The translations under genes and the position numbers were made by a program. The notes under the pieces are model-generated. The model worked only from the letters and a program-made list of their open reading frames with translations, searched no databases and was not told the DNA's origin. From NCBI GenBank assembly GCA_902785355.1, contig CACZYF010000035.1:1-34865 (forward strand): a stretch of DNA of 34,865 nt, in the 5' to 3' direction. Below are positions 1,606 to 16,566 of this stretch, in pieces. Position 1 is the stretch's first letter; each line of letters opens with the position of its first letter. The DNA is from an uncultured Ruminococcus sp. (GTDB lineage Bacteria; Bacillota; Clostridia; Oscillospirales; Acutalibacteraceae).

Positions 1606-1926
1606 TTATTTGCTATTCTTTTTGAAGAGCGCCGCTTTTACAACGCCTCTCGGGTCTTTGACGAGTAGGATCACCAACCAGATGATCAGACCGAGCGCTA
1701 CGACGGACAGCCCGAGGAACAGGTCGTTGAGCATATCTGCGGGAGCGGGTGTAAAATACGCGGCTCCCAGCTCGGCGTATTCGAAGATCGCGTCGATCAG
1801 CCACATCAGCGAAGCGCCCCAGAACATCCAGCAGAGAACGCCGATCATCATCTCGTTCTTCGGCGCGTTTTTGTACCAGATGATCGTGCAAATGATCGCG
1901 GCGAAAACGGAAGTCAACAGTGTCAT
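1606..1926 (-). CDS. Small membrane protein, second gene of a pair
   Basis: A 106-residue protein with three hydrophobic segments (about 1-17, 27-47 and 70-90) and a basic C-terminus (KKNSK). Family not recognised. It begins 10 bases after the stop of the 1937-2359 gene, and its ribosome binding site (GAGGT, 1934-1938) overlaps that stop, so the two are co-transcribed and probably translationally coupled. Both proteins contain a similar patch: MFWGASLMWLIDAIFEYAEL here and MLWGGSALLMFEHIWHGEI in the partner. That suggests an old duplication of a membrane subunit, possibly forming a hetero-oligomer. No catalytic motif seen. Confidence 0.75.
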   Translation of the reverse strand: MTLLTSVFAAIICTIIWYKNAPKNEMMIGVLCWMFWGASLMWLIDAIFEYAELGAAYFTPAPADMLNDLFLGLSVVALGLIIWLVILLVKDPRGVVKAALFKKNSK

Positions 1927-1936
1927 ACAATTGACC

Positions 1937-2359
1937 TCAGCCTTCGGACGCGGCGAGGGTATCGGCCTCTTTCTCAGCTCTCTTTTCGATCAGCGCGGTA
2001 ACGCCGACGACGCCCAGCCATACGGCTGTGACGAGAGCCGCCATCGAGACGCCGACCGTCGCCATCTCATGCATCATCTGTGCGGCGTCTGCGGGATCGG
2101 ACGCGGCAGTCAGGAACGGGAAGAACGGAACGATCTCTCCGTGCCAGATATGCTCGAACATCAGCAGCGCGCTGCCGCCCCAGAGCATACGGTTGAGCCA
2201 TTTGAGCTTGCGGGAGAAGGGGATCTTCTGCGCTGCTTCGGTCTTTACGCCGTCGAAGCTTACCTTCAGCTCCTGCTGTTCCTTTTCCTTCTTCTCAATG
2301 ATCTTTGTCGCGACGGTGGTGATCACCGCTTCAGTTGCTGCTACGAGAAAACACGCCAT
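1937..2359 (-). CDS. Small membrane protein, first gene of a pair
   Basis: A 140-residue protein. The start ATG at 2357-2359 follows GGAGGTG (2366-2372). The N-terminus is hydrophobic (about 1-18), followed by a charged Lys/Glu-rich region to about residue 55, then two hydrophobic segments (about 57-85 and 100-123) and a charged tail (EKRAEKEADT). It shares the W-G-x-S patch with the protein of the downstream gene. The region upstream (2370-2400) is a run of TATA-like sequence that probably contains the promoter, but no single -10/-35 pair stands out. Function unknown; the order and overlap with 1606-1926 argue for a two-subunit membrane complex. Confidence 0.75.
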   Translation of the reverse strand: MACFLVAATEAVITTVATKIIEKKEKEQQELKVSFDGVKTEAAQKIPFSRKLKWLNRMLWGGSALLMFEHIWHGEIVPFFPFLTAASDPADAAQMMHEMATVGVSMAALVTAVWLGVVGVTALIEKRAEKEADTLAASEG

Positions 2360-2505: not shown

Positions 2506-2534
2506 TTGACTTTTTACAGTCCCTTTGTTACAAT
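2506..2534 (+). promoter_or_regulatory. Promoter of the hypB-hypB-oxidoreductase-hypA operon
   Basis: TTGACT at 2506-2511 and TACAAT at 2529-2534 are separated by 17 bases. The start codon at 2541 is only seven bases after the -10 box, so transcription should begin at or next to the A of the ATG, giving a leaderless message. There is no Shine-Dalgarno sequence before the ATG. Confidence 0.75.
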
Positions 2535-2540
2535 TGATGC

Positions 2541-3203
2541 ATGAAAACCGTACTGATTAAAGAGGATATTATTTCCCGTAACAACGAGCGCGCGAGGGAA
2601 GTAAGAGCCCTTACGCGAGAAAAGAAAATATACTACGTAAACGTGATGTCGTCGCCCGGCGGCGGGAAGACCACCCTGCTCACGAAGCTGATCCCCGCAC
2701 TTGGCGACAGCCTGCGCGTCGGGGTGATCGAAGCGGATATCGACTCCGACAAGGACGCGGTCACGATCGAAGGAGCGACCGGAGCGCGCACGATTCAGAT
2801 GCATACCGGCGGCGCCTGTCACATCACCTGCCAGATGAGCCTCGAAGCGCTCGAGGCGCTCGGCATAGACGGACTCGACGTCGTGTTTCTCGAGAACATC
2901 GGCAACCTCGTCTGCCCGGCTGAGTTCGATACCGGCGCCGACATGAATCTGGTGCTTTTGAGCGTGCCGGAGGGGGACGATAAGCCGCTGAAATATCCGC
3001 TGATGTTCGAGGTGGCTTCCGCTGTAGCGATCACGAAGCTGGATGTAGCGCCGATCTTTGATTTTGATCGTGAGAGAGCGGTGCAGAACATCCGTAAACG
3101 CAACGAGGACGCGGATGTGTTCTTTGTGTGCGCGAAGAGCGGCGAGGGCGTCGCGGAGCTTGCGGATTATCTGCTTCAAAAGATCAGTGCAGCGAAAGAG
3201 TAA
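2541..3203 (+). CDS. hypB: HypB-family nickel-insertion GTPase, first copy
   Basis: A 220-residue SIMIBI GTPase of the HypB family, which uses GTP to load nickel during maturation of [NiFe]-hydrogenase and sometimes other nickel enzymes. Seen: P-loop SSPGGGKTT (Lys43), EADIDSD (65-70) of the switch region, the metal-binding Cys-His pair (C93, H94) with the third ligand C125 in LVCPAEFD, TKLD (165-168) as the base-recognition motif, and a CAKSG loop near residue 197. It lacks the N-terminal CxxCGC site of E. coli HypB and any His-rich stretch. The start has no ribosome binding site and coincides with the predicted transcription start. The stop is 16 bases before a second hypB. No hydrogenase subunit or HypC-F gene lies nearby. 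Confidence 0.93.
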   Translation: MKTVLIKEDIISRNNERAREVRALTREKKIYYVNVMSSPGGGKTTLLTKLIPALGDSLRVGVIEADIDSDKDAVTIEGATGARTIQMHTGGACHITCQMSLEALEALGIDGLDVVFLENIGNLVCPAEFDTGADMNLVLLSVPEGDDKPLKYPLMFEVASAVAITKLDVAPIFDFDRERAVQNIRKRNEDADVFFVCAKSGEGVAELADYLLQKISAAKE

Positions 3204-3219
3204 ATCTGCGAGGTGTGCG

Positions 3220-3882
3220 ATGCAAGAGGTCAGAACGATTTTATTATCAAAGAGCGTTTTCGAGGATAACGACCGCGCGGCTGACGCGCTGCGTGAACGC
3301 CTGCGAGAGAAGGGCGTGTGTCTTGTTAACGTGATGTCCTCGCCCGGCAGCGGAAAAACGACGCTCCTCGTATCGCTGATCCGTCGGCTTGCTGAGAAGT
3401 ACCGCGTCGGCGTGATGGAGGCGGATATCGACTCGGACGTAGACGCCGTGACCGTGGCGCGTGAGACAGGCTGCCGCTCCGTCCAGCTCCACACGGACGG
3501 GATGTGCCATCTCGACGCCGGCATGACCGAACAGGGGCTTCGGGAGCTCGGCGAAGGACTCGATCTCATTTTCCTCGAGAATGTCGGCAACCTTGTCTGT
3601 CCGGCTGAGTACGACACCGGCGCGACCTGTAACGTCGTCATCCTGTCCGTTCCCGAGGGGACGGATAAACCGCTCAAATACCCGTTGGTGTTTGAGAACA
3701 GCGACCTGGTCATCATCAGCAAGATCGACGCGCTGCCGTATTTTGATTTTGATATCGAAGAATGTAAAAGCTACGTCGGTAAACGGAACGGCGCGGTCGA
3801 GGTGATCCCCGTCTCCGCTAAGACCGGCGAGAATATGGAAGCACTGGAAAACTGGTTTATCAATAAAGTGACAGGGGTTTAG
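3220..3882 (+). CDS. hypB: HypB-family nickel-insertion GTPase, second copy
   Basis: 220 residues. ATG at 3220 is chosen because GAGGTG (3210-3215) precedes it and the protein then aligns end to end with the HypB just upstream; longer readings into the upstream gene are artefacts. Seen: P-loop SSPGSGKTT (Lys46), EADIDSD (68-73), Cys-His pair C96/H97, third ligand C127 in LVCPAEYD, SKID (167-170) and VSAKTG (198-203). All motifs needed for GTP and metal binding are intact, so it is not a dead copy. The sequence differs widely from the first copy outside the motifs, which points to an old duplication and perhaps a heterodimer, since HypB works as a GTP-dependent dimer. It is three bases from the oxidoreductase gene. 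Confidence 0.93.
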   Translation: MQEVRTILLSKSVFEDNDRAADALRERLREKGVCLVNVMSSPGSGKTTLLVSLIRRLAEKYRVGVMEADIDSDVDAVTVARETGCRSVQLHTDGMCHLDAGMTEQGLRELGEGLDLIFLENVGNLVCPAEYDTGATCNVVILSVPEGTDKPLKYPLVFENSDLVIISKIDALPYFDFDIEECKSYVGKRNGAVEVIPVSAKTGENMEALENWFINKVTGV

Positions 3883-3885
3883 ATT

Positions 3886-6750
3886 ATGCCGAAACAAAAT
3901 GAATTCATTATCAGCAAATACCAGAACGAAAAGGATTTTCAAAAGAGCTACTCGAAGCTCGGTAAGAAGATCACCGACGTTGTGAAGCACAAGCTCGGCG
4001 GCGTGACCGCGAACGATCCCGAATACTGGGGGCTTCGAGAGATGCTCACCCCCGAGATGGTCGACATGCTCAATAAGATGAAGGTGCGCAAGCACTATAC
4101 GCTGGACGACCTTATCAAGCTCCACAAGGGCGTCGATCCCAAGCACGTGGAGGAGGTCTACGAGCAGATGTCGGTCATCGGCATCATCGAGTATGACTAC
4201 GGCGACAACTACACCCATAACCTCAAGGACGATCATCCGATCCCGAACGCCCCGAAGATCAAGCGCTATAAGCTGTCGTTCTTCGTCCCGGGCAGCGCGG
4301 AGCTGTTCAACTCCTCCGTCGACAGGATCGAGAAGAATCCGGCAGTCACCTCGTTTTTTGAGCGGATGACCTTCATCCCGCTCGCGGGTATCACCCAGAT
4401 GGTCGCGCCCGGCGGCATGGGTATCGGCATGCATGTTATCCCGGTCGAGAAGGCAATCGACGCCCAGCAGGAGGCGATCACGCTCGAGCGTATCTCTTAC
4501 TGGCTCGATAAATACGAGGGGCATATCGCCGCGGGCATCTGCTCCTGCCGCGCTTCACGCGCCGTGCTCGGCGACGGCTGTACCGACGACGTGAACGACT
4601 GGTGCGTCCAGCTCGGCGATATGGCGGATTATGCCGTCGAGACCAACCGCGCACATTATATTACTAAGGAACGCGCGCTGGAGATCTTTGAGCTTGCCGA
4701 GAAGAACGGCTATGTCCATCAGATCACCAACATCGACGGTGAGAATAAGATCTTCGATATCTGTAACTGCAACGTGCGTATCTGTAACGCTCTGCGTACC
4801 AGTATGCTGTTCAATACGCCCTATCTCTCCCGCAGCGCCTATACCTCAAAGGTCGACAGGAACAAGTGCGTCGCCTGCGGCAAGTGCGTTGAGATCTGTC
4901 CCGCCGGCGCTGTCAAGCTTGGACAGAAGCTGTGCAAAAAGGACGGCTCCGAGGTGAAGTACCGCCACTCTATCCTACCCGATAAGGTTCGCTGGGGCGA
5001 GTACGCATGGGATGAGAACTACCGCGATACACAGGTCGCCTCCAATACTTTTGACAAGGGCAGCGCGCCGTGTAAGGCTGCGTGTCCCGCTCATGTGCCG
5101 ATCCAGGCATATCTCGCCCTCGCGAAAGAGGGTAAGTACCGCGAGGCACTCGCGATGATCAAGACCGAGAACCCCTTCCCGTCCGTCTGCGGCAGAGTCT
5201 GTAACAAGCGCTGTGAGGACGCCTGCACCAGAGGCACGATCGACGCGCCCGTATCCATCGACGCGGTCAAGAAGTTTGTCGCCGATCTCGAGCTTGCCGA
5301 TAAGGAACGCTACGTTCCCGAGAAGCTCGTGCAGTCCGTCTACGGCAAGTGGGATGAGAAGATCGCTATCATCGGCGGCGGTCCCGCCGGTCTGAGCGCG
5401 GCGTATTATCTCGCCGAGATGGGCTATACCCCGACGGTATTTGAGAAGAACGCCGTCCCCGGCGGTATGCTCACCTACGGTATCCCCGGCTATAAGCTGG
5501 AGAAGGATGTTATCGAAGCCGAGATCGACGTGCTCCGCAAGCTCGGCGTAGAAATAAAGTGCGGCGTGAACGTCGGTGAGGATATCACCATCGATCAGCT
5601 CCGTAAAGAGGGCTACAAGGCGTTCTATATCGCCATCGGCTGCCAGGGCGGCAAACGCCCCGGCGTGAAGAACGATACCGCCGAGGGTACGGATATCGCC
5701 GTATCGTATCTCAGAGACAGCTACGAGCACCGCGCAAGCTTTACCGGCGACGTCGTGGTTGTCGGCGGCGGTAACGTAGCAGTTGACTGCGCGAGAAACG
5801 CCCATCGTCTGGGCGCCACAAGCGTGAAGATGTTCGCGCTCGAATCGCGCGATATCATGCCCGCGTCGAAGGAGGAGATCGCCGAGACCCTCGAGGAGGA
5901 TATCGCTGTCGAGAACGGCTGGGGTCCGAAGGAGGTCCTCACCGACGAAAGCGGCAAGGCTACCGGCATCATCTTCAAGCGCTGCACCTCCGTCTATAAC
6001 GCCGAGGGTAAATTCGCTCCCGAATACGATGAGAACGACACCGTACAGGTGAAAGCTGACAAGATCGTGTTCGCGATCGGTCAGAGCATCGAGTGGGGCA
6101 GGCTGCTCGATGGTACCAAGGTAGAGTTCTGGCACGGCAACTATCCCGTCGCGGATAAATTCACCTACCAGACCGCTGAGGAGGATATTTTTGTCGGCGG
6201 CGACGTCTACACCGGACCGAAATTCGTGATCGACGCGATCGCTGCGGGTCACGAGGCGGCTGAGAGCCTGCATCGCTTTGTCCGTCCGAAGGCGCATATG
6301 ACCATCGGCAGGAACAAGCGCGCCTATACGCCGCTTGACGTCAACGACATCTCCGTGCCTGATTACGATCATGCCGGTCGTCAGGAGGCGGGAATGGACA
6401 ACAGCGAGGATCATCGTATCTCCTTCAAGGATCTGCACAAGACGCTGACCGCCGAGCAGGTCAGGATCGAGACCTCCCGCTGCCTGTCCTGCGGCGCGTC
6501 CTACGTTGATCCCAACAAGTGTATCGGCTGCGGTCTGTGTACTACCAAATGCCAGTTCGACGCGATCCATCTGATCCGCGACAACCCGAAGTGCTCCGAT
6601 ATGCGTATCGCCGAGGATAAGGTGACCGGGCTTTTGAAGTATCAGACAGCCCGTATCGGCAAGATCATCATGAACTCCGGCTCCGAGGACGCGAAGATCA
6701 TGCGCGAGAAACGCAAGGCGTGGAAAAAAGCGCAGAAGGAATCTAAATAA
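3886..6750 (+). CDS. Multidomain Fe-S / FAD / NAD(P) oxidoreductase (GltD/NfnB-like core)
   Basis: A 954-residue cytoplasmic protein in the middle of a hyp operon. Order: an N-terminal region (1-320) of unknown fold carrying Cys motifs CSC (219-221) and CNC with C300 (293-300); a 4Fe-4S ferredoxin motif C328-x2-C331-x2-C334-x3-C338-P; the Fe-S domain typical of glutamate synthase small subunit and dihydropyrimidine dehydrogenase (C396, C400, C435, C439, C443, C447); an FAD Rossmann motif GGGPAG (497-502); an NAD(P) motif GGGNVA (627-632); and a C-terminal ferredoxin part (C866, C869, then C879, C882, C885, C889). The core resembles NfnB/GltD, which bifurcates or passes electrons between NAD(P)H, flavin and Fe-S clusters. 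No glutamine amidotransferase or synthase subunit is adjacent, so glutamate synthase is unlikely. Role inferred: electron transfer linked to a nickel protein. The stop overlaps the hypA start by one base. Confidence 0.9.
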   Translation: MPKQNEFIISKYQNEKDFQKSYSKLGKKITDVVKHKLGGVTANDPEYWGLREMLTPEMVDMLNKMKVRKHYTLDDLIKLHKGVDPKHVEEVYEQMSVIGIIEYDYGDNYTHNLKDDHPIPNAPKIKRYKLSFFVPGSAELFNSSVDRIEKNPAVTSFFERMTFIPLAGITQMVAPGGMGIGMHVIPVEKAIDAQQEAITLERISYWLDKYEGHIAAGICSCRASRAVLGDGCTDDVNDWCVQLGDMADYAVETNRAHYITKERALEIFELAEKNGYVHQITNIDGENKIFDICNCNVRICNALRTSMLFNTPYLSRSAYTSKVDRNKCVACGKCVEICPAGAVKLGQKLCKKDGSEVKYRHSILPDKVRWGEYAWDENYRDTQVASNTFDKGSAPCKAACPAHVPIQAYLALAKEGKYREALAMIKTENPFPSVCGRVCNKRCEDACTRGTIDAPVSIDAVKKFVADLELADKERYVPEKLVQSVYGKWDEKIAIIGGGPAGLSAAYYLAEMGYTPTVFEKNAVPGGMLTYGIPGYKLEKDVIEAEIDVLRKLGVEIKCGVNVGEDITIDQLRKEGYKAFYIAIGCQGGKRPGVKNDTAEGTDIAVSYLRDSYEHRASFTGDVVVVGGGNVAVDCARNAHRLGATSVKMFALESRDIMPASKEEIAETLEEDIAVENGWGPKEVLTDESGKATGIIFKRCTSVYNAEGKFAPEYDENDTVQVKADKIVFAIGQSIEWGRLLDGTKVEFWHGNYPVADKFTYQTAEEDIFVGGDVYTGPKFVIDAIAAGHEAAESLHRFVRPKAHMTIGRNKRAYTPLDVNDISVPDYDHAGRQEAGMDNSEDHRISFKDLHKTLTAEQVRIETSRCLSCGASYVDPNKCIGCGLCTTKCQFDAIHLIRDNPKCSDMRIAEDKVTGLLKYQTARIGKIIMNSGSEDAKIMREKRKAWKKAQKESK

Positions 6751-7118
6751 TGCATGAGCTCGGTATCGTAGTCAAGGTGCTCGATCAGGTCGATGAGGTC
6801 GCCGCGGAGTATAAGGCGCAGAAGATCCTCAAGGTCACCATGGAGGTAGGCGAGGTCAGCACCATCGTGCCCGATCTGTTCACAGACGCCTTTGACTGGG
6901 CGAAGAAAAAGACCCGCTTCGCACAGGAAGCGGAGCTCGAGATGATCATCATCGAGGGACGGACGTACTGTGAAGGCTGCGGCGAGACCTACAGAACCAC
7001 CGAGCACGGGAAGAAGTGCCCTTACTGCGGGAGCCGCGAGACCTATCTTCTCACGGGCGATCAGGTGATTATCAAGAATATCGCGGCGGTCTTCGGCGAT
7101 GAAGACGGCGAGACATAA
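6750..7118 (+). CDS. hypA: HypA-family nickel metallochaperone
   Basis: 122 residues; the start overlaps the preceding stop (TAATG). HypA hands nickel to its client together with HypB. Seen: the invariant N-terminus MHEL with nickel ligand His2, an acidic middle, and a structural zinc site C74-x2-C77 and C90-x2-C93. The length is normal (about 115 in the family), with a slightly longer acidic tail (GDEDGE). Being last in an operon with two hypB genes and an oxidoreductase supports one joint metal-delivery job. A strong hairpin follows 18 bases after the stop. Confidence 0.93.
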   Translation: MHELGIVVKVLDQVDEVAAEYKAQKILKVTMEVGEVSTIVPDLFTDAFDWAKKKTRFAQEAELEMIIIEGRTYCEGCGETYRTTEHGKKCPYCGSRETYLLTGDQVIIKNIAAVFGDEDGET

Positions 7119-7136
7119 AGCTTCATATTATTAAGA

Positions 7137-7166
7137 AAACGGCAGTTCCGCGCGGAACTGCCGTTT
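7137..7166. terminator. Perfect 15-bp palindrome, bidirectional terminator
   Basis: AAACGGCAGTTCCGC is followed directly by its exact reverse complement, with A/T tracts on both sides. It lies between the convergent hypA and CPBP protease genes and probably ends both. Confidence 0.8.
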
Positions 7167-7185
7167 CGATTTATCTGCATATTTC

Positions 7186-8127
7186 TTATTTGTCTGCGGG
7201 AACGGGGACAGGCTGTGCGCGACGGGAGATCTTCGCGTTGAACTGCGCCGCGTCGTCCTTCTTGACCTTATCGAACCAGCCGAGCTTCTTCTTCGCAAAG
7301 ACGAGGAAGCCGATGTACAGACCCATGCAGCAGACGGTCATAACCATAGAGAAAACATCGACCTGCGATCGGATAGCGCCGAAGCCGAAGCCCGCGAACA
7401 GGAACGCCGCGAGGTTGTTGACCGTGTGCGCCGCGCAGCTCGCTTCAAGTCCGTTGGTGACGACCGTACAGATACCCAGGGCGATACCCGTCACTGAAAT
7501 GGAGATCACGCCGACGAGGTTGTACGGGTGCCCGGCGGCGAAGAGGATCGTCTGCAGAATGATCGGTATGACCGGGATCCTGATCCACGAGCCGAACGCC
7601 TGCATGATCAGTCCGCGGAAGATGTATTCCTCGGCAAAGCACTGCAGCGGAACAAGGATGACGCATAGGATGATTCCGATCACGGTAAAGCGGATGTTGC
7701 CGGTCGCCTTTTCGGTGAGCAGCGTCTGGACGGTCAGCGGAATCCCGATGCATACCAGCGCGCCGGCAAGCGTTTTGAAGAACACGCCGAAGTCGAAGCC
7801 GCCGCGGGAGGATGAGTAGGATGAAAAGCTGCGACTGTTGACGATACGGTTGCCGATCAGCAGCGCAGGCAGAAAGACAGCGACGCTGCCGAGCGAGATG
7901 ATCGCGCCGTGAATCGTGTAGACGTCCATCGTGTTATATCCGCCGTTGATCATCTTGAGGACGTCATAGCCCTGCCTTGCGCCGATAACTGTGCCGATCA
8001 GGGTAACACCGAAACTGAATAATAAACAGAATACAATCGTCAGAAGCCCGACCAGCAGCGGCTTGTACCACTTGTACGGTGTGAACTGCTTGGGGTAGGT
8101 AAGGTATGCGGGTACGTTTGACTGCAT
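7186..8127 (-). CDS. CPBP (CAAX/Abi) family intramembrane metalloprotease
   Basis: 313 residues from ATG 8127 (protein begins MQSNVPAYLT). This start is chosen because AGGAG lies nine bases upstream and because the reading further upstream, to 8199, runs into the predicted -10 box. Polytopic membrane protein with about eight hydrophobic segments. The family motifs are intact: EEYIFR (Glu166, Glu167, Arg171), His200 in GHPYN, and HTVNN (His234, Asn238), which form the metal-dependent active site in this clan. Bacterial members process peptides, confer self-immunity to bacteriocins or act as scaffolds; nothing nearby decides which. The tail is basic and Pro-rich (ISRRAQPVPVPADK). Single gene with its own promoter. 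Confidence 0.9.
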   Translation of the reverse strand: MQSNVPAYLTYPKQFTPYKWYKPLLVGLLTIVFCLLFSFGVTLIGTVIGARQGYDVLKMINGGYNTMDVYTIHGAIISLGSVAVFLPALLIGNRIVNSRSFSSYSSSRGGFDFGVFFKTLAGALVCIGIPLTVQTLLTEKATGNIRFTVIGIILCVILVPLQCFAEEYIFRGLIMQAFGSWIRIPVIPIILQTILFAAGHPYNLVGVISISVTGIALGICTVVTNGLEASCAAHTVNNLAAFLFAGFGFGAIRSQVDVFSMVMTVCCMGLYIGFLVFAKKKLGWFDKVKKDDAAQFNAKISRRAQPVPVPADK

Positions 8128-8190
8128 TTTTATCATCTCCTGATTTATCTTTTTCATATGGATTTGCATTACAACCGGAGCTATACGGCT

Positions 8191-8219
8191 ATCATACAAA
8201 AAATCCCGCCGTTTATCAA
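8191..8219 (-). promoter_or_regulatory. Promoter of the CPBP protease gene
   Basis: Reading leftward, TTGATA (8219-8214) and TATGAT (8196-8191) are separated by 17 bases. The -35 box lies inside a copy of the dispersed 20-bp repeat (8212-8232). Confidence 0.6.
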
Positions 8220-8232
8220 GGATTAGTATAAG
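8212..8232 (+). repeat. Dispersed intergenic repeat, copy a
   Basis: TTTATCAAGGATTAGTATAA followed by G. One of six related copies with consensus TATYAAGGATTAGTATWAG, all outside genes. Confidence 0.65.
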
Positions 8233-8305
8233 GTTACGGAGAATCTACAAAACCGGATCGATATGATAACCGGGGTTCGGTAGAACATAAACGCCGCAAC
8301 GGACA

Positions 8306-8329
8306 GGGCACGACCTCTCGGCCGTGCCC
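8306..8329 (-). terminator. GC-rich hairpin after the 8348-8950 gene
   Basis: GGGCACG-CC pairs with GG-CGTGCCC around TCTC. There is no T-run behind it on the minus strand, so termination is only possible, not certain. Confidence 0.4.
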
Positions 8330-8347
8330 GAATGGTTCGATGTCAGC

Positions 8348-8950
8348 TCAAACGACGAAAACGTTGAGGTTTTTGTCGATGGTGAGGTTGAAGGCAGCGG
8401 CGGACTCTACACCGTTGGCGATATCATATTTCAGCTCAACGTGAGAGGTGCCGGGCTTCAGACCGCAGAACTCGAAGTTGTACTGGTTCTTGGTCTTATT
8501 GAAGTCGCAGCGGATCATAACGTTGTCGTTGTCGACGCTGCCGTGCCAGCGGAAGCCGTCGGTGGTTTTGCCGGGAACGAAGAAGCGGTAGGAGTTGCCG
8601 TTGTTCTTGGGAGCGACATTCTTGATATCGGTGTAAACGCTCTCACCGTTAACGGTGTCGAGACGGTAGTACGGATCGAGCTTGTTGTCGATGTCGCCCT
8701 TCTGATCTGTAACGATGGTTTTGCCGTCGGAGAGCGCCTTGGTGTCCGCCTTGGCGGAGATTGCGGGTGTAGGTGCGGGATCGTTGGGATTCGGTGTGTT
8801 CATGGTGTTGGCAATCAGCGCGCCTGCCGCGGTCACGGCGACCAGCGCTGCGACGGTCACGCCCATGAGGATCCTTTTCTTGTAAGCCTTGAGTTTTCTC
8901 GTTACGATGAAGCCTGTGATTGTGTTGGTGAAAGTGTTTGTGTTAGTCAT
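8348..8950 (-). CDS. Membrane-anchored exported protein, paralogue of the 1-734 gene
   Basis: 200 residues, starting at ATG 8950 behind AGGAGGGA (8958-8965). N-terminus MTNTNTFTNT, a basic patch (RKLKAYKKR), one membrane segment (about 28-50), a Pro/Asn/Thr linker, then a domain of about 110 residues with VNGESVYTDIK, PGKTTDGFRWHGS, NKTKNQYNFEFCGLKPG and an all-beta ending NLNVFVV. The C-terminal domain matches the start of the corresponding domain in the 1-734 protein; here the Ala/Lys stalk is absent. The pattern (a strand-rich domain with GLKPGTSHVELKY) looks like a beta-sandwich outside the membrane. No enzyme motif seen. The promoter and leader are near copies of those of its paralogue, so the two are probably co-regulated. 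Confidence 0.85.
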   Translation of the reverse strand: MTNTNTFTNTITGFIVTRKLKAYKKRILMGVTVAALVAVTAAGALIANTMNTPNPNDPAPTPAISAKADTKALSDGKTIVTDQKGDIDNKLDPYYRLDTVNGESVYTDIKNVAPKNNGNSYRFFVPGKTTDGFRWHGSVDNDNVMIRCDFNKTKNQYNFEFCGLKPGTSHVELKYDIANGVESAAAFNLTIDKNLNVFVV

Positions 8951-9076
8951 TTTTTTTCCCTCCTGAAAATTTTGATTTTTATTAAATGACTGTTTTTGCT
9001 TTCCGCCGAAGATTCTTTATATTCAGCAGTCCTTCTGTTCGGCGGCTTGGGTCAGGCTTTAAGCTTGTTCCCTTGA
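8951..9076 (-). promoter_or_regulatory. Conserved, probably structured 5' leader (copy 2)
   Basis: Near copy of the leader at 735-862. The CCGCCG/CGGCGG stem is longer here (CCGCCGAA at 9045-9038 with TTCGGCGG at 9010-9003), and the small promoter-proximal hairpin keeps its pairing through a G-C to A-U change relative to copy 1. Confidence 0.5.
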
Positions 9077-9081
9077 CTGTG

Positions 9082-9121
9082 GCTATAGCATAACACACCC
9101 ACTATGACAACAGTATGACAA
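9082..9121 (-). promoter_or_regulatory. Promoter with tandem TTGTCATA operator (copy 2)
   Basis: TTGTCA at 9110-9105 and TATAGC at 9087-9082 with a 17-base spacer; TTGTCATA is repeated at 9121-9114 and 9110-9103, 11 bp apart. It differs from copy 1 at one base of the spacer. Confidence 0.6.
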
Positions 9122-9167
9122 AAAACGAGGGAATTATATAATTCTTAAAATTTTTTCAAAAAACAGG

Positions 9168-9194
9168 TTTTTATTAAGGACTAGTATTAGTATA
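9168..9194 (+). repeat. Dispersed intergenic repeat, copy b
   Basis: Contains TTATTAAGGACTAGTATTAG and a further TATAA. It shares about 24 bases, including GGTTTTTATTAAGG, with copy d at 18648-18673 read on the other strand. Confidence 0.65.
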
Positions 9195-9231
9195 AAAAAA
9201 GCGAGAACCGATCCGGGGAGGATCGGTTCTC
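9194..9231 (-). terminator. Intrinsic terminator of the EndoU operon
   Basis: GAGAACCGATC (9203-9213) pairs with GATCGGTTCTC (9221-9231), followed on the minus strand by a run of seven T (9200-9194). Confidence 0.85.
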
Positions 9232-9247
9232 AGGCTTAGAGGAATTT

Positions 9248-9619
9248 TTAATGATGATGCTCGTGCTTATGATTATGCTTGAGCAACGCCATCTTTTCTT
9301 TTACCTTGATTTCACGCAGCGCGTAGATATAGTCGAGCAGAACGGTCTTAAAATCCCCGGTGCCGATTTCAAGCTCGCGATCGTCGTTGTCGTTAGTGAT
9401 TTTGCAGGTATCTTTGTTGATCTCGAGCGTAAAGGCGTTTCCCGTAAAGCGCTCCGATTCGGACATTCCTAAATCCACGTCGTTCGTTGCGGATAAGATC
9501 TCTCGTCTAAAGCTTCTTTCCGCAAGCAGAAATTCACCCAGCAGGCTGTAGCTTTCATCCTCGAAAACTACATACGGGACAGGACGCTTGTGCTCGGTTA
9601 TTTTGATCTCGTAATTCAT
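9248..9619 (-). CDS. Small protein coupled to the EndoU lipoprotein; candidate immunity protein
   Basis: 123 residues, cytoplasmic by sequence (no signal peptide or membrane segment). It starts two bases after the stop of the EndoU gene and its AAGGAG lies inside that gene, so translation is coupled. Seen: an acidic, mixed alpha/beta protein (YVVFEDESYSLLGEFLLAE, then NAFTLEINKDTCKITNDNDD) and a His-rich tail KHNHKHEHHH that could bind metal. Family not firmly recognised; there is a loose resemblance to small immunity-like or YacL-type proteins. Its place directly after an RNase gene suggests it neutralises the RNase, but an anchored lipoprotein partner makes this uncertain. The window also encodes nickel chaperones, so a metal role for the His tail is an alternative. 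Confidence 0.8.
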   Translation of the reverse strand: MNYEIKITEHKRPVPYVVFEDESYSLLGEFLLAERSFRREILSATNDVDLGMSESERFTGNAFTLEINKDTCKITNDNDDRELEIGTGDFKTVLLDYIYALREIKVKEKMALLKHNHKHEHHH

Positions 9620-9621
9620 AA

Positions 9622-10233
9622 TCAGTCTCCTTCATAAATCGGGAACGCGGTGGTGATTCTTTTGCTTGAGTCGAGGTACATATCGATTTCTATATCGCCG
9701 CAGTAGCCGATCCATAACGAGCCCTTCGGGTTACTTGGATTGTTGATCGCGTCGTCATAGGCGGTGTTGATCGCGTCTACGATCTGCTGGGGCGTCCAGC
9801 TCTCGGGGTAAAAGGAGCTGAATCCGTTTTTCTTGATTCCGCTGACCTCGACCTTTCCCGTGAACACACCGTTTTCATCTTCATCCGACCGTGTTCCTTC
9901 AATGATCCTTCCCTTGCTGTCCTTCACCAATGTGCAGTGATAACCCGTCGCTTTACCCTTGCTGTTGATCGTACCGTCAAAGATATGCTCCAGCGTTTTT
10001 TTGGCGAAGCGCTCGGTGTTTTTCAGCTTTTTGATATCCGCCATCGTGTACGACGCCTCGGCGGTCTTTTCGGCGGCTTGCGTCGGTTGGAGCCTCTCGG
10101 CGTCCTGTGAGGAGGAAACGGCGGTCTTTTCCGGATTCTCCATGATCTCCGTTATCTGTGTATTACAGCCCGCAGTGATCGCCAACAGCATCACGATGAA
10201 GACTGCCGCGATCAGCCTTTTCAAATTATTCAA
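9622..10233 (-). CDS. Lipoprotein with bacterial EndoU ribonuclease domain
   Basis: 203 residues from a TTG start (10231-10233) behind AGGGGTGA. Signal peptide with lipobox TAGC (Cys23), a Ser/Thr/Glu linker to about residue 65, then an EndoU domain (about 66-203). EndoU enzymes are metal-stimulated or metal-independent RNases with two catalytic His and a Lys. Seen: H83 in LEHIFDG, H99 in GYHC, K134/K135 in GIKKNG, then SSFYPESW (139-146), the helix QQIVDAINTAYDDA and the ending TTAFPIYEGD, all fitting the bacterial toxin-type EndoU pattern. In polymorphic toxins this domain sits at the end of large secreted proteins; here it stands alone on a lipid anchor. Promoter at 10264-10292; coupled to the 9248 gene. 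Confidence 0.85.
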   Translation of the reverse strand: MNNLKRLIAAVFIVMLLAITAGCNTQITEIMENPEKTAVSSSQDAERLQPTQAAEKTAEASYTMADIKKLKNTERFAKKTLEHIFDGTINSKGKATGYHCTLVKDSKGRIIEGTRSDEDENGVFTGKVEVSGIKKNGFSSFYPESWTPQQIVDAINTAYDDAINNPSNPKGSLWIGYCGDIEIDMYLDSSKRITTAFPIYEGD

Positions 10234-10263
10234 AAAATCACCCCTGACGGATAAGATACCTCT

Positions 10264-10292
10264 ATCCTAACACATCCGAATCCGATTGTAAA
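10264..10292 (-). promoter_or_regulatory. Promoter of the EndoU operon
   Basis: Reading leftward, TTTACA (10292-10287) and TAGGAT (10269-10264) with a 17-base spacer. Confidence 0.6.
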
Positions 10293-10374
10293 TAAGGGGA
10301 TGACAGATTCGCTTATCTGTTTGTCGAAATGAAGAAAAATTTCTCTTATTTATCAAAAGAATCGCTGTTTTTTG

Positions 10375-10403
10375 TTGACATGCGAATCTCGGTTTTGTAT
10401 TAT
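10375..10403 (+). promoter_or_regulatory. Promoter of the c-di-GMP gene pair
   Basis: Consensus TTGACA at 10375-10380, a 17-base spacer and TATTAT at 10398-10403. The first gene starts about 42 bases later. Confidence 0.75.
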
Positions 10404-10444
10404 AAAATAAGAGCAAATACCCGAAATAAAAACTCGGAGTGCAA

Positions 10445-13036
10445 ATGATGAAAAGGTATGTATTCAGTGACGCCGAACGAACGGCTCTGGAGAAGCTGCG
10501 CGTTCCTCTCGCAGTCTATCAGTTTTTGAACAAGCGGGTCGTGACGATTCTGGTTTCCGACGGTTTTGTCGAGCTGCTGGGCTATGAGAGCAGAGAAAAA
10601 ACGATCTATGCGATGGATAACAATATGTACGAGGATACCCATCCCGACGACAAGTCGCGCATTTCCGACGCGGCGGTGAGATTTGCCGTAAACGGAGGCG
10701 GATATAACGTCGTTTACCGTTCGCGTTCCGTTAAGGACGGCGACTACCGGATCCTGCATGCGATCGGTGAGCACGTTTATACCGAGGACGGCACACGGCT
10801 TGCGTACGTCTGGTATATGGATGAGGGTCTGTATTCCGATCAGAGTCACAATAAGCTGCTTGCGGAAGGCTTCGACATCCGCCGCGCGATCCGGGATAAG
10901 AGCGAGTCGGAGAACAGCAGCTATGATGTGCTGACCGGTCTGCCCACGATGTCCTATTTTATTGATCTCGTCAACCAGTGGCGGCGCGATCACAGGGGCG
11001 GTAACGGCAGTATGGCGGTCGTGTACATCAACCTGAGCGGTATGAAGCACTATAACAGCCAATTCGGCTTTGCAGAAGGAGATAATCTTCTGAGGCGGTT
11101 TGCACTGATCCTCGAGAGACAGTTCGGACATGAAAACTGCAGCCGCTTCAGTTCCGATCATTTCTGCGTATTCACCCCGACAAACGGATTGGAAGAAAGA
11201 CTCGAGCAAGTTTTTACCGTATTTAAAAAGGATAAAGCGGGTCCCTCGCTGCCCGTGCGCGTCGGCATCTATCCCGAGATCTACGGCATCCTCGGCGTCA
11301 GCTCCGAGTGTGACCGCGCCAAATACGCCTGCGATCTCCTGATAAACACTCGTATCTCCGACTTCCGGTATTATGAAAAATCCATGTTGGCTCAGTCACA
11401 AAAGCGCCATTACTATATCGATAATCTGAATCGCGCGATCAAGGAAGGGTGGATCCAGGTTCACTACCAGCCCATCATCCGCACCGCGAACCGCCGCGTC
11501 AGTGATGAAGAAGCGCTGGCGCGCTGGAACGATCCCGTCCGGGGAATGATCCCTCCGAGCGAGTTTATCCCCGTGCTGGAGGAAGCTAAGCTGATCTACA
11601 AGCTGGATCTCTGTGTTCTGGAGCAGGTTCTTGAGAAGATCAAGATACAGGAGCGGGAGGGGCTGTATGTGGTGCCGACCTCTATCAACCTGTCGCGCTC
11701 GGATTTTGACGCCTGTGATATTGTCGAGGAGGTCCGCCGTCGCGTTGACGCCGCCGGCGTCAGCCGCAGTCTCATCAATATCGAGGTGACGGAGAGCACG
11801 ATCGGCAAGGACTTTGACTATATGAAGTCACAGATCATCCGTTTCCGAGAGCTTGGCTTCCACGTTTGGATGGACGATTTCGGCAACGGCTATTCTGCGC
11901 TCGATACGCTGCACAGCATCCATTTTGACCTGATCAAATTTGATATGTTTTTTATGAAGCAGTTCGCCGACGGCGATAAGAGCCGGATCCTTTTGACCGA
12001 ACTGATCCGCATGGCGATCTCGCTGGGGGTGGATACGATCTGCGAGGGCGTTGAGACCGAGGAACAGGTGGCGTTCCTACAGGAGGTCGGCTGTACGATG
12101 ATGCAGGGCTTCTATTTCTGCCGCCCGATCCCGATGGACGCCATCCTCGACCGCTACCGCACCGGTACTCAGATCGGCTTTGAAAATCCCGAAGAATCCG
12201 ACTACTACGCCGCGATCGGTAAGATCAATCTATATGACCTCGCCATCCTCTCCAACGACGACGAGGAGGTGTTCGAGCATTATTTCAACACGATCCCGAT
12301 GGCGATCTTCGAGTCGACCGAAGAATCGCTTGTGCTGGTGCGCTGTAACTCCACCTATCGTTCACTGATGGTCAGGCAGCACGGCAGGCTCCCGATCGGT
12401 CTTGCTTTGAACTTCGAAAAGGGCGACGGCGTTACAAGCCGAACCTTCTTGAACGCAATACGCGAGTGTGTGAACAAGGGCAGCAAGATGCTCCTGGAGG
12501 AGCGGCACTCCGACGGCACCGTGAGTCAGATCTTTTTGAAGAATATCGCCGTCAACCCTGTTACCGGCGCCAGCGCGATCGCGGTCGCGGTGCTTGCGAT
12601 CACCCCTTCCGATAACAGACCTGTTTCCTTTACCCATCTCGCCAGAGCGCTGACCTCCGATTATCTCACCGTGTACTACGCCAATGTCCGCACGGGACGG
12701 TTTGTAGAATATAGGGGCAGCGATGAGCTCGACGAGCCGGAGGCGGAGCGCTTCGGCGACGACTTCTTCGAATCTATCCGCAGCACGGCGCGCGAGAGGG
12801 TCGCGCCCGAGGATATCGAGCCTCTTCTCGCAGCATTGACCAAAGAGAACATCATGCGCTCGATAGAAGAGATGGGATCGTTCGTCCTTTTCTTCAAGGC
12901 GAAGGTATTTGGCAAGATGAAGCCCGTCAATCTCAAGGCGGTGCGTATCAAGCACGACCGGGATCATATCATCCTCGGTCTGAGAGAAAAGATAGAATTG
13001 ACCGAAGCTGAGGCACAAGAAAACGAGCGGGGGTAA
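10445..13036 (+). CDS. PAS - degenerate GGDEF - EAL c-di-GMP phosphodiesterase
   Basis: About 863 residues; ATG 10445 or 10448 is preferred over the in-frame GTG at 10439 because GGAG (10436-10439) covers that GTG. Order: PAS-like domain (about 10-125), GGDEF-type domain (about 155-310), EAL domain (about 320-570), then two more sensor-like alpha/beta regions to the end. The GGDEF signature has become SSDHF (236-240), so diguanylate cyclase activity is unlikely. The EAL domain looks active: EAL (356-358), INLS, EVTES, DDFGNGYS (477-484), the Lys in DLIKFD, EGVETEEQ and QGFYFCRP. Expected reaction: c-di-GMP to pGpG, perhaps controlled by GTP at the dead GGDEF domain. It has no membrane segment. 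The next gene, an intact diguanylate cyclase, starts five bases after the stop. Confidence 0.9.
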   Translation: MMKRYVFSDAERTALEKLRVPLAVYQFLNKRVVTILVSDGFVELLGYESREKTIYAMDNNMYEDTHPDDKSRISDAAVRFAVNGGGYNVVYRSRSVKDGDYRILHAIGEHVYTEDGTRLAYVWYMDEGLYSDQSHNKLLAEGFDIRRAIRDKSESENSSYDVLTGLPTMSYFIDLVNQWRRDHRGGNGSMAVVYINLSGMKHYNSQFGFAEGDNLLRRFALILERQFGHENCSRFSSDHFCVFTPTNGLEERLEQVFTVFKKDKAGPSLPVRVGIYPEIYGILGVSSECDRAKYACDLLINTRISDFRYYEKSMLAQSQKRHYYIDNLNRAIKEGWIQVHYQPIIRTANRRVSDEEALARWNDPVRGMIPPSEFIPVLEEAKLIYKLDLCVLEQVLEKIKIQEREGLYVVPTSINLSRSDFDACDIVEEVRRRVDAAGVSRSLINIEVTESTIGKDFDYMKSQIIRFRELGFHVWMDDFGNGYSALDTLHSIHFDLIKFDMFFMKQFADGDKSRILLTELIRMAISLGVDTICEGVETEEQVAFLQEVGCTMMQGFYFCRPIPMDAILDRYRTGTQIGFENPEESDYYAAIGKINLYDLAILSNDDEEVFEHYFNTIPMAIFESTEESLVLVRCNSTYRSLMVRQHGRLPIGLALNFEKGDGVTSRTFLNAIRECVNKGSKMLLEERHSDGTVSQIFLKNIAVNPVTGASAIAVAVLAITPSDNRPVSFTHLARALTSDYLTVYYANVRTGRFVEYRGSDELDEPEAERFGDDFFESIRSTARERVAPEDIEPLLAALTKENIMRSIEEMGSFVLFFKAKVFGKMKPVNLKAVRIKHDRDHIILGLREKIELTEAEAQENERG

Positions 13037-13041
13037 GTCTA

Positions 13042-14283
13042 ATGTCATATTCTATCATCGGGATCATTGCGATTATGGTTCATCTGATCATCAACCGTGA
13101 TATGCTGTGGCATTACAGCGACTATACCGACGTCCCCGCCTACAAGGAATACCGCGAGTATATCCTCGGTATGCTGTTCTTCTGCGTGACGGATGTACTG
13201 TGGGGCTTTTTGAATGACCTCGGGGCGATTGTGCCGCTTTACGCGGTGACTGTCCTCTACTTCACCACCATGATGGCGGGCTTTCTGCTGTGGACGCGGT
13301 ATGTCGCCGCCTATATGGAGGGCGACGGACACAGTGTGTTCAGACGTATCCTCTTTGCGGCGGGGATCGTGTTCTTCTCCTGTGAGATCGTGATCCTTAT
13401 CATCAATTTTTTTGTCCCCATCCAGTTTTATTATGACGTAAACGGCGTCTATCACGCCGGCGGCGCGCGCTATGCGACGCTGGCGATGCAGGTCGTGCTG
13501 TTCCTCGTCACGTCGGTCTATACCTTTGTGATGAAGTCGTCGAGTAAGAGCGCGACCGGGCGGCTTCGACGTTCTGTCGGTATGTTCGGTATCCTGATGG
13601 CGGCGCTGATCGTTATGCAGCTCTATTATCCGATGCTGCCGCTGTATTCCATCGGCTACCTGCTCAGCAGCTGTATGCTCCATTCCTTCGTTGTAGAGGA
13701 GGAGAAGGACGAGTATCGCAAGAGCCTGAAAGAAATGCTGGATCGCACCAAGCAGCAGAGCCTCGAGCTCGGCGACGCAAGGCGCAAGATCTATACCGAT
13801 CCGATGACCGGCGTCGGCAGCAAGCAGGCGTATATGGAGAATGTCAACGCGCTCGACGCCCTGATCCGCGACGGCAAATCCGAAGAATTCGCGGTGATCG
13901 TGTTCGACGTCAATAATCTGAAGACCATCAACGATACCCTGGGGCATGATACCGGGGACGTCTATATCTATAATGCATCGATGCTGATCTGTGAGTTCTT
14001 TGACAGCTGTCCCGTTTACCGCATCGGCGGCGATGAATTCGTCGTGATCGTACAGGGTGAGCCCTATCAGAGCCGCCGTAAGCAGCTCGCTGCCTTTGAA
14101 GCGCAGATGGACAGCAATAATGGCTCCGATAAGGTCGTGGTGTCCTCGGGGATGTCCGCGTATCAGCGCGGCTCCGATACGCGCTATCTCGCGGTTTTTG
14201 AGCGTGCCGATCAGCAGATGTATAAGCGCAAGCGTAAGCTTAAGAAATGCGCGGGAGTCAGCCCCGGCAGAATCCGCTCCTGA
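13042..14283 (+). CDS. Seven-TM membrane diguanylate cyclase (GGDEF)
   Basis: 413 residues. Seven hydrophobic segments fill residues 1-225, followed by a short coiled linker (EEKDEYRKSLKEMLDRTKQQ) and a GGDEF domain (about 245-400) with the start motif DPMTGVGSK, FDVNNLKTINDTLGHDTGD and an intact RIGGDEF (GGDEF at 329-333). It should therefore make c-di-GMP from two GTP at the inner face of the membrane. No RxxD inhibitory site is seen at the usual place before GGDEF. The operon partner upstream has a working EAL and a dead GGDEF domain, so the pair gives one enzyme for synthesis and one for breakdown. The 7TM part is the likely signal receiver; its ligand is unknown. Confidence 0.9.
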   Translation: MSYSIIGIIAIMVHLIINRDMLWHYSDYTDVPAYKEYREYILGMLFFCVTDVLWGFLNDLGAIVPLYAVTVLYFTTMMAGFLLWTRYVAAYMEGDGHSVFRRILFAAGIVFFSCEIVILIINFFVPIQFYYDVNGVYHAGGARYATLAMQVVLFLVTSVYTFVMKSSSKSATGRLRRSVGMFGILMAALIVMQLYYPMLPLYSIGYLLSSCMLHSFVVEEEKDEYRKSLKEMLDRTKQQSLELGDARRKIYTDPMTGVGSKQAYMENVNALDALIRDGKSEEFAVIVFDVNNLKTINDTLGHDTGDVYIYNASMLICEFFDSCPVYRIGGDEFVVIVQGEPYQSRRKQLAAFEAQMDSNNGSDKVVVSSGMSAYQRGSDTRYLAVFERADQQMYKRKRKLKKCAGVSPGRIRS

Positions 14284-14392
14284 GCGGGACGGTATCTGCC
14301 GTCGATCGGTGAATCATACCGAATCCGGGTCGTTATCTTCAGCAACCGAAAGAAATAATAGACTACTGTAATAATCAGAAAGGGATAGAATA

Positions 14393-15322
14393 ATGGGTAA
14401 TACGTTTTATTTCGAATGGGAAGTCGCGCTGATGCAGTGGATCCAGTCGTGGCTGGGTCCTGTCGGTACGGCGATCGCTTCCGCTTTCAGCGAAATGGGA
14501 GAACAGCTGGTGTGCGTTGCGGTACTGGGCTTTCTGTATTGGTGTTGGGAGAAGGAGTTCGGCAAATATGTCGGACTGAACGTGCTGGTGGGCATCACCC
14601 TCAACCCCATGATTAAGAATATCTTCGTAAGGCGCAGACCGTATTTTGATCACGCGGGGATCAAATGCCTCAAGCCCGTGGAAAAGGGCGCCGATATTTA
14701 TGATATCTCGGCTCAGGGTTATTCCTTCCCCAGCGGACACTCAACAAACGGCGTGACCCTTTATACTTCTCTCGGACTTTATAAGAAGAACAGGATCCTG
14801 ATGATTATCGGCGTTATCGCGCCGCTGCTGATCGGTATCTCGCGCTTCTGCGTCGGCGTGCATTATCCGACGGATGTCATCTGCGGCTGGGCGCTGGGCT
14901 TGATCGTCGCTTTCCTTGTTCCCGCGCTGCAGCGCGCGATCAAAAACCGCCGGCTCTTCTACGGACTGCTGGTACTGATCGCTCTTCCGGGCTGGTTCTA
15001 CTGCAGAAGCGCCGACTACTACACCGCCTTCGGTATTCTGGTCGGCTTCATCATCGCGGTGGAATTTGAAGAGAGGTTTGTCAAATTTGAGAATACGCGC
15101 AATATCCTACGGTGTATTTTGCGTCCGGTACTGGGCGTCGCCGTTTACTTCGGACTGAATACGCTGTTGAAGCTCCCGTTCGGCAAGGAGTTTCTCGACT
15201 CTGCTACCATGGCTTCTTACGCGGTACGCGCAGCGCGCTACTGTGTGGTTATTTTCTTCACCATCGGCGTGTATCCGCTGATCTTCCGGCTCGGCGACCG
15301 CGTATTTAAGCGTAAGGGCTGA
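14393..15322 (+). CDS. PAP2-family membrane phosphatase
   Basis: 309 residues with about eight membrane segments. The three-part PAP2 catalytic signature is complete: K75-x6-R82-P83 (KNIFVRRRP), PSGH (113-116), and S150-R151-x5-H157 with D161 (SRFCVGVHYPTD). Members remove phosphate from lipid phosphates such as phosphatidate, phosphatidylglycerol phosphate or undecaprenyl pyrophosphate; the substrate cannot be told here. The C-terminal third (about 190-309) adds four more hydrophobic segments beyond the core domain. The start follows AAAGGG nine bases upstream. It is separated from the c-di-GMP pair by 109 bases without a clear terminator, so read-through is possible. Confidence 0.9.
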   Translation: MGNTFYFEWEVALMQWIQSWLGPVGTAIASAFSEMGEQLVCVAVLGFLYWCWEKEFGKYVGLNVLVGITLNPMIKNIFVRRRPYFDHAGIKCLKPVEKGADIYDISAQGYSFPSGHSTNGVTLYTSLGLYKKNRILMIIGVIAPLLIGISRFCVGVHYPTDVICGWALGLIVAFLVPALQRAIKNRRLFYGLLVLIALPGWFYCRSADYYTAFGILVGFIIAVEFEERFVKFENTRNILRCILRPVLGVAVYFGLNTLLKLPFGKEFLDSATMASYAVRAARYCVVIFFTIGVYPLIFRLGDRVFKRKG

Positions 15323-15394
15323 TCCTCCGGTGATCGCAGAAAAAAGGCGCTGACTGATATGAAAGTGAACTGATTCATAAAGGAGAACCATGAT

Positions 15395-16336: not shown

Positions 16337-16367
16337 GCCGATAATCATAATATCAGTTCATAATAGG

Positions 16368-16397
16368 AAAGGGCGGATCGTTTTGAACCGCCCTTTT
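16368..16397 (+). terminator. Intrinsic terminator
   Basis: AAAGGGCGG (16368-16376) pairs with CCGCCCTTT, followed by T. It ends the MBL-rubredoxin gene. Confidence 0.75.
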
Positions 16398-16427
16398 CAT
16401 GAGGAATCAGATCTGCTTCCTTGTGTG

Positions 16428-16449
16428 TTTTATCAAGGATTAGTATTAG
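16428..16449 (+). repeat. Dispersed intergenic repeat, copy c
   Basis: Contains TTTATCAAGGATTAGTATTA; 118 bases before the Cthe_2159-like gene. Confidence 0.65.
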
Positions 16450-16566
16450 CGTTTAAGCCGCAGATGTTTTTTTCGGTTCGACCCCATTTTGAACCTCAAA
16501 ACCTTCGTATAGATGAGTGAAGCAAAAAAGTTTCAACAACAAAAATACAGAACGGAGGTAACTCAA

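Follow-up and report, generated by a model that had tools for sequence, protein, structure and literature searches.

A HypB-HypB-oxidoreductase-HypA operon from an uncultured Ruminococcus sp. as a candidate nickel-chaperoned reductase of conjugated double bonds

What do the nickel chaperones HypA and HypB serve in a genome where no [NiFe]-hydrogenase large subunit is found? The question is raised by a 34,865-nucleotide stretch of DNA from an uncultured Ruminococcus sp. (contig CACZYF010000035.1 of assembly GCA_902785355.1; hereafter the window), in which two HypB genes, the gene of a 954-residue oxidoreductase and a HypA gene follow one another on the same strand. The window is contig 35 of a 73-contig, 2.23-Mb draft genome with a completeness of 98.98%. 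The four-gene operon, first proposed in a sequence-only reading of the window, was confirmed through its coordinates, its gaps of 16, 3 and -1 bases (HypB1/HypB2/oxidoreductase/HypA) and its Pfam and NCBIfam matches. Both HypB proteins scored above the NCBIfam cut-off (217 and 216 bits vs 121), HypB2 being counted from its ATG where the list of open reading frames shows a longer TTG start. HypA was above its Pfam cut-off (102.6 vs 28.9) and below the NCBIfam equivalog cut-off (75.2 vs 88.1). The genes and the parts of the oxidoreductase are as follows.

2541..3203, + strand: HypB1, nickel-chaperone GTPase of 220 amino acids (aa) (TIGR00073, 217 bits)
3220..3882, + strand: HypB2, nickel-chaperone GTPase of 220 aa from its ATG (TIGR00073, 216 bits)
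3886..6750, + strand: IsrA-type oxidoreductase of 954 aa (Pfam and PDB matches, alignments, and a model with a predicted local distance difference test score (pLDDT) of 87.7)
4540..4785, + strand: six-cysteine site C219, C221, C240, C293, C295 and C300 with the invariant H278 (alignments, published IsrA CxC spacing)
4867..4899, + strand: ferredoxin-type [4Fe-4S] motif C328-C338 (Fer4_6 match at 322-342; invariant)
5062..6249, + strand: GltD/NfnB-like Fer4_20 and FAD/NAD(P) core, residues 393-788 (Pfam, sequence and fold matches)
6481..6552, + strand: C-terminal ferredoxin-type cysteines C866-C889 (Fer4 match at 873-894; invariant)
6750..7118, + strand: HypA, nickel metallochaperone of 122 aa (PF01155, 102.6 bits; in the oxidoreductase-linked HypA clade)

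We take the operon to be an IsrA-type module (probability of about 0.6), a nickel-chaperoned reductase of conjugated C=C bonds which in the rumen relatives probably acts on conjugated fatty acids. Judging from the domains, NAD(P)H would reduce the FAD of the GltD/NfnB-like part, and electrons would run via the [4Fe-4S] clusters to the N-terminal six-cysteine site. There a conjugated C=C bond of a hydrophobic substrate would be reduced, as an electron sink or for detoxification, with HypB and HypA as the dedicated chaperones that would load nickel into the site. For the nearest relatives from the rumen, and for members of some other families, a conjugated fatty acid is the probable substrate; an isomerase of the C. 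acnes type, whose gene lies within the operon or next to it, would form it from linoleate. We infer nickel binding, its place and the substrate reduced, as well as the extension from isoprene to fatty-acid reduction. If nickel were confirmed, the module would bring a new reaction to the nickel enzymes, the hydrogenation of unactivated conjugated alkenes.

The sequence-only reading had called the module undescribed, which does not hold: the family, its HypA/HypB neighbours, the six-cysteine site and the idea of nickel are already present in the available text of PMC10134865 (Kronen et al. 2023). That reading also overlooked the probable reaction, in which conjugated C=C bonds would be reduced, as well as the link to an isomerase. 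What is new here is this link, the co-occurrence of HypA with the oxidoreductase across genomes, a HypA lineage of its own, and a host genome in which none of the other nickel enzymes searched for turned up.

The IsrA-type family and its isomerase neighbour

In the available text of PMC10134865, IsrA is the putative isoprene reductase of Acetobacterium wieringae ISORED-2, induced in isoprene-reducing cells, and its homologues form 'clade 9'. The same text counts 988 homologues, with HypA beside 73% and HypB beside 56% of them and a co-occurrence of 0.4 for DUF5692, and it describes a six-cysteine site with two CxC motifs for which nickel is proposed. On DUF5692, which is encoded next to these operons, we found no other paper. 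The published layout of about 900 residues, PF07992 plus PF14691 and two further ferredoxin-type motifs is that of the window protein. In a comparison resting on this layout and on the residue positions published in PMC10134865, C219/C221, C293/C295 and C328 of the window protein correspond to C180/C182, C254/C256 and the motif at 289 of IsrA, each shifted by +39. HypA and HypB neighbours are common to both, as are DUF5692 neighbours in part of the family. The gene content differs: HypA is doubled and HypB single in the five-gene isr operon, which also includes a separate ferredoxin; in the window HypB is the doubled gene and HypA the single one, and a gene for a ferredoxin is absent.

Relatives were compared in two sets of loci, one of 41 (the window plus 40 fetched) and one of 80 named loci, the best 80 of at least 528 relatives, several of which end at contig edges. 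The closest named relative (L110), from goat rumen, is 90% identical to the window protein over the N-terminal 345 residues and carries a gene for a 483-aa isomerase between its two HypB genes. The same arrangement, with one extra gene, was found in L111. Isomerase homologues lie in or beside the operon in five of the 80 named loci, the other three being L112 (upstream of HypB), L116 (divergent) and L132 (upstream). They also occur in L090 and in four of the 40 fetched unnamed loci, which overlap with the loci of the genome search described below. The only PDB match of the L110 isomerase at E<=1e-8 was 2b9w (E 1.1e-103), an entry labelled 'putative aminooxidase', which we take to be the polyunsaturated fatty acid isomerase (linoleate isomerase) of C. 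acnes. That enzyme is reportedly the one described in Liavonchanka 2006. This naming agrees with the available part of PMC13365329, which cites Liavonchanka 2006. Even the divergent isomerase copies matched 2b9w at 139-252 bits, vs about 30 for other amine oxidases.

An isomerase profile built from four proteins was then run against 80 genomes, comprising 38 oxidoreductase-positive and 42 hand-picked negative ones. All six matches fell in positive genomes (Fisher p 0.009), and these six span four families. Five of the matches lie 1.1-3.6 kb from the oxidoreductase match, one of them (G093) as a 115-aa frame only; in the sixth genome (G254) the two are on different contigs.

According to PMC2885616, linoleate is converted by the isomerase to a conjugated diene. 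Isoprene reduction takes a conjugated diene to a monoene, and its pairing with an isomerase that forms such a diene suggests fatty-acid biohydrogenation. An oleate hydratase adjoins the A. woodii homologue (available text of PMC10134865), and Pseudobutyrivibrio, to which three of the 80 named loci belong, is described in part of PMC7339423 as a known trans-11 producer. A cluster of GntR/FCD regulators is represented at 14 of the 80 named loci, in most cases adjoining the operon, and one of these regulators has a marginal FadR_C match. At its fullest, the proposal is that a nickel-dependent Fe-S flavoenzyme, of a new nickel-enzyme class hydrogenating unactivated alkenes, reduces conjugated linoleic acid (CLA) to a monoene and, with the co-encoded isomerase, would complete the route linoleate -> trans-10,cis-12 CLA -> trans-10 18:1 in rumen and gut anaerobes, with a tie to the trans-10 shift of dairy cattle; in this complete form we hold it only tentatively.

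A serious competitor, which we nevertheless regard as unlikely, keeps the nickel-chaperoned reductase and changes its substrate to small alkenes (isoprene) or some other conjugated compound, with the isomerase as a side branch. IsrA itself is tied to isoprene in the available text of PMC10134865, and the oxidoreductase family is widely spread. Several absences also weigh against a fatty-acid role: the window's genome had no isomerase at E<=1e-20, 32 of the 38 positive genomes (the window's included) gave no match, and the three Pseudobutyrivibrio loci have none in their flanks. Against this competitor, the isomerase is present in the four nearest named relatives with enough upstream DNA, leaving aside L113 and L114, in whose available DNA it was not found; it recurs in four other families, and many loci are from gut and rumen sources. 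Between L110 and the window, HypB2-oxidoreductase-HypA aligned as one near gap-free block of 3,865 columns with 81% DNA identity. Because L110 and L111 both hold the isomerase between their HypB genes, comparison of the sequences indicates that the window has probably lost it. With no isomerase found in its genome, the window enzyme would depend on other organisms for conjugated dienes or act on a different substrate.

The isomerase link, on the fatty-acid reading, offers candidate genes for ruminal biohydrogenation, a step with poorly known genes, and L110 (goat rumen), L116 and L132 (both water buffalo) are direct candidate operons. A sequence for the fatty-acid oxidoreductase was reportedly given by Fukuda 2007. 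Passages of PMC4478896 place the fatty-acid oxidoreductase of biohydrogenation in no KEGG, COG or Pfam entry, and those of PMC6249431 report no linoleate isomerase gene found in Butyrivibrio. Which bacteria form trans-10 products is called unclear in the available part of PMC7339423, with C. acnes unlikely to be the sole or main one. Among the titles and abstract starts listed in searches of open-licence PMC papers, none joined an IsrA-type reductase with a fatty-acid isomerase, and the text of PMC10134865 contains no word starting with 'linole', 'rumen' or 'gut'.

The six-cysteine site and the case for nickel

By Pfam, the oxidoreductase carries Fer4_20 and Pyr_redox_2 (the PF14691/PF07992 layout) with two Fer4 regions flanking this core, which is GltD/NfnB-like over about residues 393-800, and residues 1-320 had no Pfam match. 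The full-length predicted model (pLDDT 87.7, predicted template modelling score (pTM) 0.88) gave NfnABC, StnABC and relatives as its best fold matches; by sequence, the part in common with PDB relatives is residues 373-871. The protein thus resembles NfnB, StnB and GltD, all NADPH-dependent flavoprotein subunits, in its Fer4_20 and FAD/NAD(P) core, and differs from them in its extra N-terminal domain with six cysteines (Cys6). Prediction of the N-terminal fold, which the sequence-only reading had called for, yielded a poor model when this part was taken alone (mean pLDDT 71.5, below 50 at residues 304-345), with no PDB fold match at E<=0.001 and weak winged-helix resemblances only.

The cysteine motifs at 219-221 and 293-300, flagged in the sequence-only reading, proved invariant. 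All six cysteines (C219, C221, C240, C293, C295 and C300) and H278 were present in 41 of 41 and in 75 of 75 aligned sequences. The C328-C338 motif was likewise invariant in both alignments, and C866-C889 in the 75-sequence one. It is plausible that nickel would be held at the Cys6 site.

The chaperones might instead deliver another metal or aid Fe-S assembly, leaving the oxidoreductase free of nickel and Cys6 an ordinary Fe-S site. We consider this fairly improbable. Nickel in the oxidoreductase is predicted only, and nine stand-alone proteins found via weak matches carry the six-cysteine pattern as judged by eye. Two of these (L090 and L091) adjoin HypA/HypB, and their HypA falls outside the oxidoreductase-linked clade; the other seven (L092-L098) have neither chaperone in the fetched flanks, and four of the seven genomes (G128, G230, G331, G411) have no HypA at E<=1e-12. 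These observations run counter to a nickel site, and the seven lone Cys6 proteins lower our confidence that six cysteines mean nickel. On the other side, the chaperones keep their metal-binding motifs (HypA 101/101; HypB 99/101, a count that includes one unlinked locus, L108), and L090 has CbiM and CbiQ, of the cobalt/nickel uptake type, beside its hyp genes.

The L090 region is of interest in itself. Positions 6648-17704 hold HypA, HypB, a stand-alone Cys6 ferredoxin, DUF5692 and an isomerase homologue, and next to the hyp genes are CbiM with PDGLE, CbiQ and an ABC ATPase. Also encoded there is a FAD protein that weakly matches geranylgeranyl reductase; no full IsrA-type protein was seen in the region.

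Chaperone linkage and the search for another client

That the chaperones are dedicated to the oxidoreductase is well supported by gene linkage, phylogenetic profile and the HypA tree. HypA was found in the flanks of 35 of the 41 loci (once as a contig-end fragment) and HypB in 34; among the 80 named loci, 66 have HypA, 58 HypB, 69 either of them and 20 DUF5692. A survey of whether the four-gene order is conserved, suggested in the sequence-only reading, had a divided outcome: the order HypB-oxidoreductase-HypA is common (48 of the 80), and the exact HypB-HypB-oxidoreductase-HypA order is rare, occurring by marker order in three (L110, L111 and L131), with other genes, the isomerase gene included, between the two HypBs of L110 and L111. 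Exceptions count against a strict pairing. Neither chaperone is present at four of the 41 loci (L055-L058); for three of these, the genome has another copy of the oxidoreductase gene that is linked to HypA and HypB. Of the 80 named loci, 13 are contig-cut, lack HypA and HypB, or have just one of them. Chance adjacency of the hyp genes and the oxidoreductase is ruled out by the locus counts and the genome profile.

The class was sampled with 393 genomes, the sets of matching genomes being transcribed by hand and kinship among genomes inflating the p-values. A match to the N-terminal 345 residues was strong (E<=1e-40) in 37 genomes and weak in six, 43 in all. HypA (E<=1e-12) was present in all 37 strong positives. 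HypD (E<1e-100) was found in 70 of the 393 genomes, and among the 323 without it HypA occurred in 20 of 20 strong positives vs 10 of 303 others. In two of these ten exceptions (G414 and G418), HypA adjoins a protein that weakly matches the Cys6 domain. DUF5692, not found in the window's genome, was present in 27 of the 393, 23 being strong positives. The oxidoreductase gene itself was in none of 35 congeners and in one (G054) of 23 other genomes of the same order.

The other eight exceptions, with HypA and neither HypD nor the oxidoreductase, are G077, G106, G130, G150, G152, G173, G192 and G295. Six of their HypA proteins are weak or start at model position 7 instead of 1; the loci of five (L105-L109) were searched only with the operon proteins, DUF5692 and the isomerase.

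In a HypA tree of few columns and with some long branches, 101 oxidoreductase-linked HypA proteins grouped on a single branch with support 100/96. Separate from it were 20 hydrogenase-linked HypA proteins, which share a contig with HypD and were hand-chosen from 51 genomes carrying both. HypA therefore looks like a dedicated form. The HypB tree was mixed at its edges, with no clean oxidoreductase-linked group; within it, HypB1 nests with the outer HypB of L110 and L111, and HypB2 pairs with the inner HypB of L110. The module can also be mobile: a search of 72,556 plasmid records turned up a single carrier, a mobilizable 267-kb plasmid of Subdoligranulum variabile with genes for HypB, the oxidoreductase, HypA and DUF5692 (locus L217, OY725877.1 188194-201114).

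Two adjoining IsrA-type oxidoreductase genes each were seen in L131, L132 and L139. A conserved gene cluster lies beside the oxidoreductase in L035, L037, L137, L138, L139, L144 (Pseudobutyrivibrio xylanivorans DSM 14809) and L146; it encodes a MinD/CooC-like ATPase, two HGD-D (double-cubane type) proteins, a BadF-type activase and a fragment resembling the acetyl-CoA synthase beta subunit (CdhC).

The absence of a hydrogenase and of HypC-F from the operon, noted in the sequence-only reading, extends to the genome in part: neither a [NiFe] large subunit (PF00374) nor HypD had a match, HypC, HypE and HypF not being searched for separately. A remnant of hydrogenase maturation is ruled out, PF00374 and HypD both being without a match. 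The operon shares HypA and HypB, with their metal-binding motifs, with [NiFe]-hydrogenase maturation (HypABCDEF), and differs in having no HypD and no large subunit and in a HypA of a separate clade. The genome check that had been suggested for LarA, urease and CODH was also run. Nothing matched LarA, the CODH/HCP family (Prismane, a search that also covers nickel-free HCP) or urease-alpha, which rules out service to LarA, CODH or urease. One further HypA match in the genome lay below cut-off (E 8e-4, within an 823-aa frame). Service to the oxidoreductase itself, raised in the sequence-only reading, is most likely correct, as no other nickel client was found among the families searched.

The window's genome is thus a cleaner case than A. 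wieringae, which still has LarA and CODH/ACS (available text of PMC10134865), and, with no match to the usual nickel enzymes, it offers a cleaner test background than Acetobacterium. Of the 21 oxidoreductase-positive, HypD-negative genomes, 16 have LarA, Prismane or urease over cut-off and five (G000, G054, G270, G341 and G424) have none of these. The module occurs beside hydrogenase systems too, with a [NiFe] large-subunit match in 16 and HypD in 17 of the 38 positive genomes searched.

It is very unlikely that the client of the two chaperones is some other nickel enzyme, outside the families searched and encoded elsewhere in the genome, with the oxidoreductase only passing electrons. The five families searched leave glyoxalase I, acireductone dioxygenase and nickel superoxide dismutase outside; against this, the chaperones stay with the oxidoreductase across species and gene orders, and its HypA is a lineage of its own. 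Still less credible is an Nfn-like electron-bifurcating enzyme with the hyp genes as passengers: the best PDB matches are indeed NfnABC and StnABC, but a scan of 12 neighbouring genes in the window found no partner subunit of the Nfn or GltB kind beside the oxidoreductase, and passenger genes would not remain linked through several gene orders.

Flanks of the operon

Three further features adjoin the four genes.

2506..2534, + strand: promoter-like site with 10 of 12 matches, its second hexamer ending 6 bases before the HypB1 start codon
7137..7166, + strand: weak terminator-like hairpin of 13 pairs, 3' of HypA
1606..2359, - strand: two divergent membrane-like small proteins (106 and 140 aa), a possible accessory pair of uncertain membership

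Both signals are weak, as five such promoter-like sites were found vs 2.7 in shuffles and four such hairpins vs 4.3. The 106- and 140-aa proteins had no match in Pfam or NCBIfam. Relatives of the first were found in L034 and L110 (a fragment), and of the second in L034, L172, L179, L180 and L189; all adjoin IsrA-type operons (six loci besides the window). The GC content of the operon is 57.1% vs 53.6% for the rest of the window, and with base compositions this near to each other a recent transfer of the operon is not visible. Elsewhere in the window, positions 9622-10233 (- strand) encode a small protein carrying a bacterial EndoU nuclease domain, and positions 15395-16333 a metallo-beta-lactamase-fold protein fused with rubredoxin.

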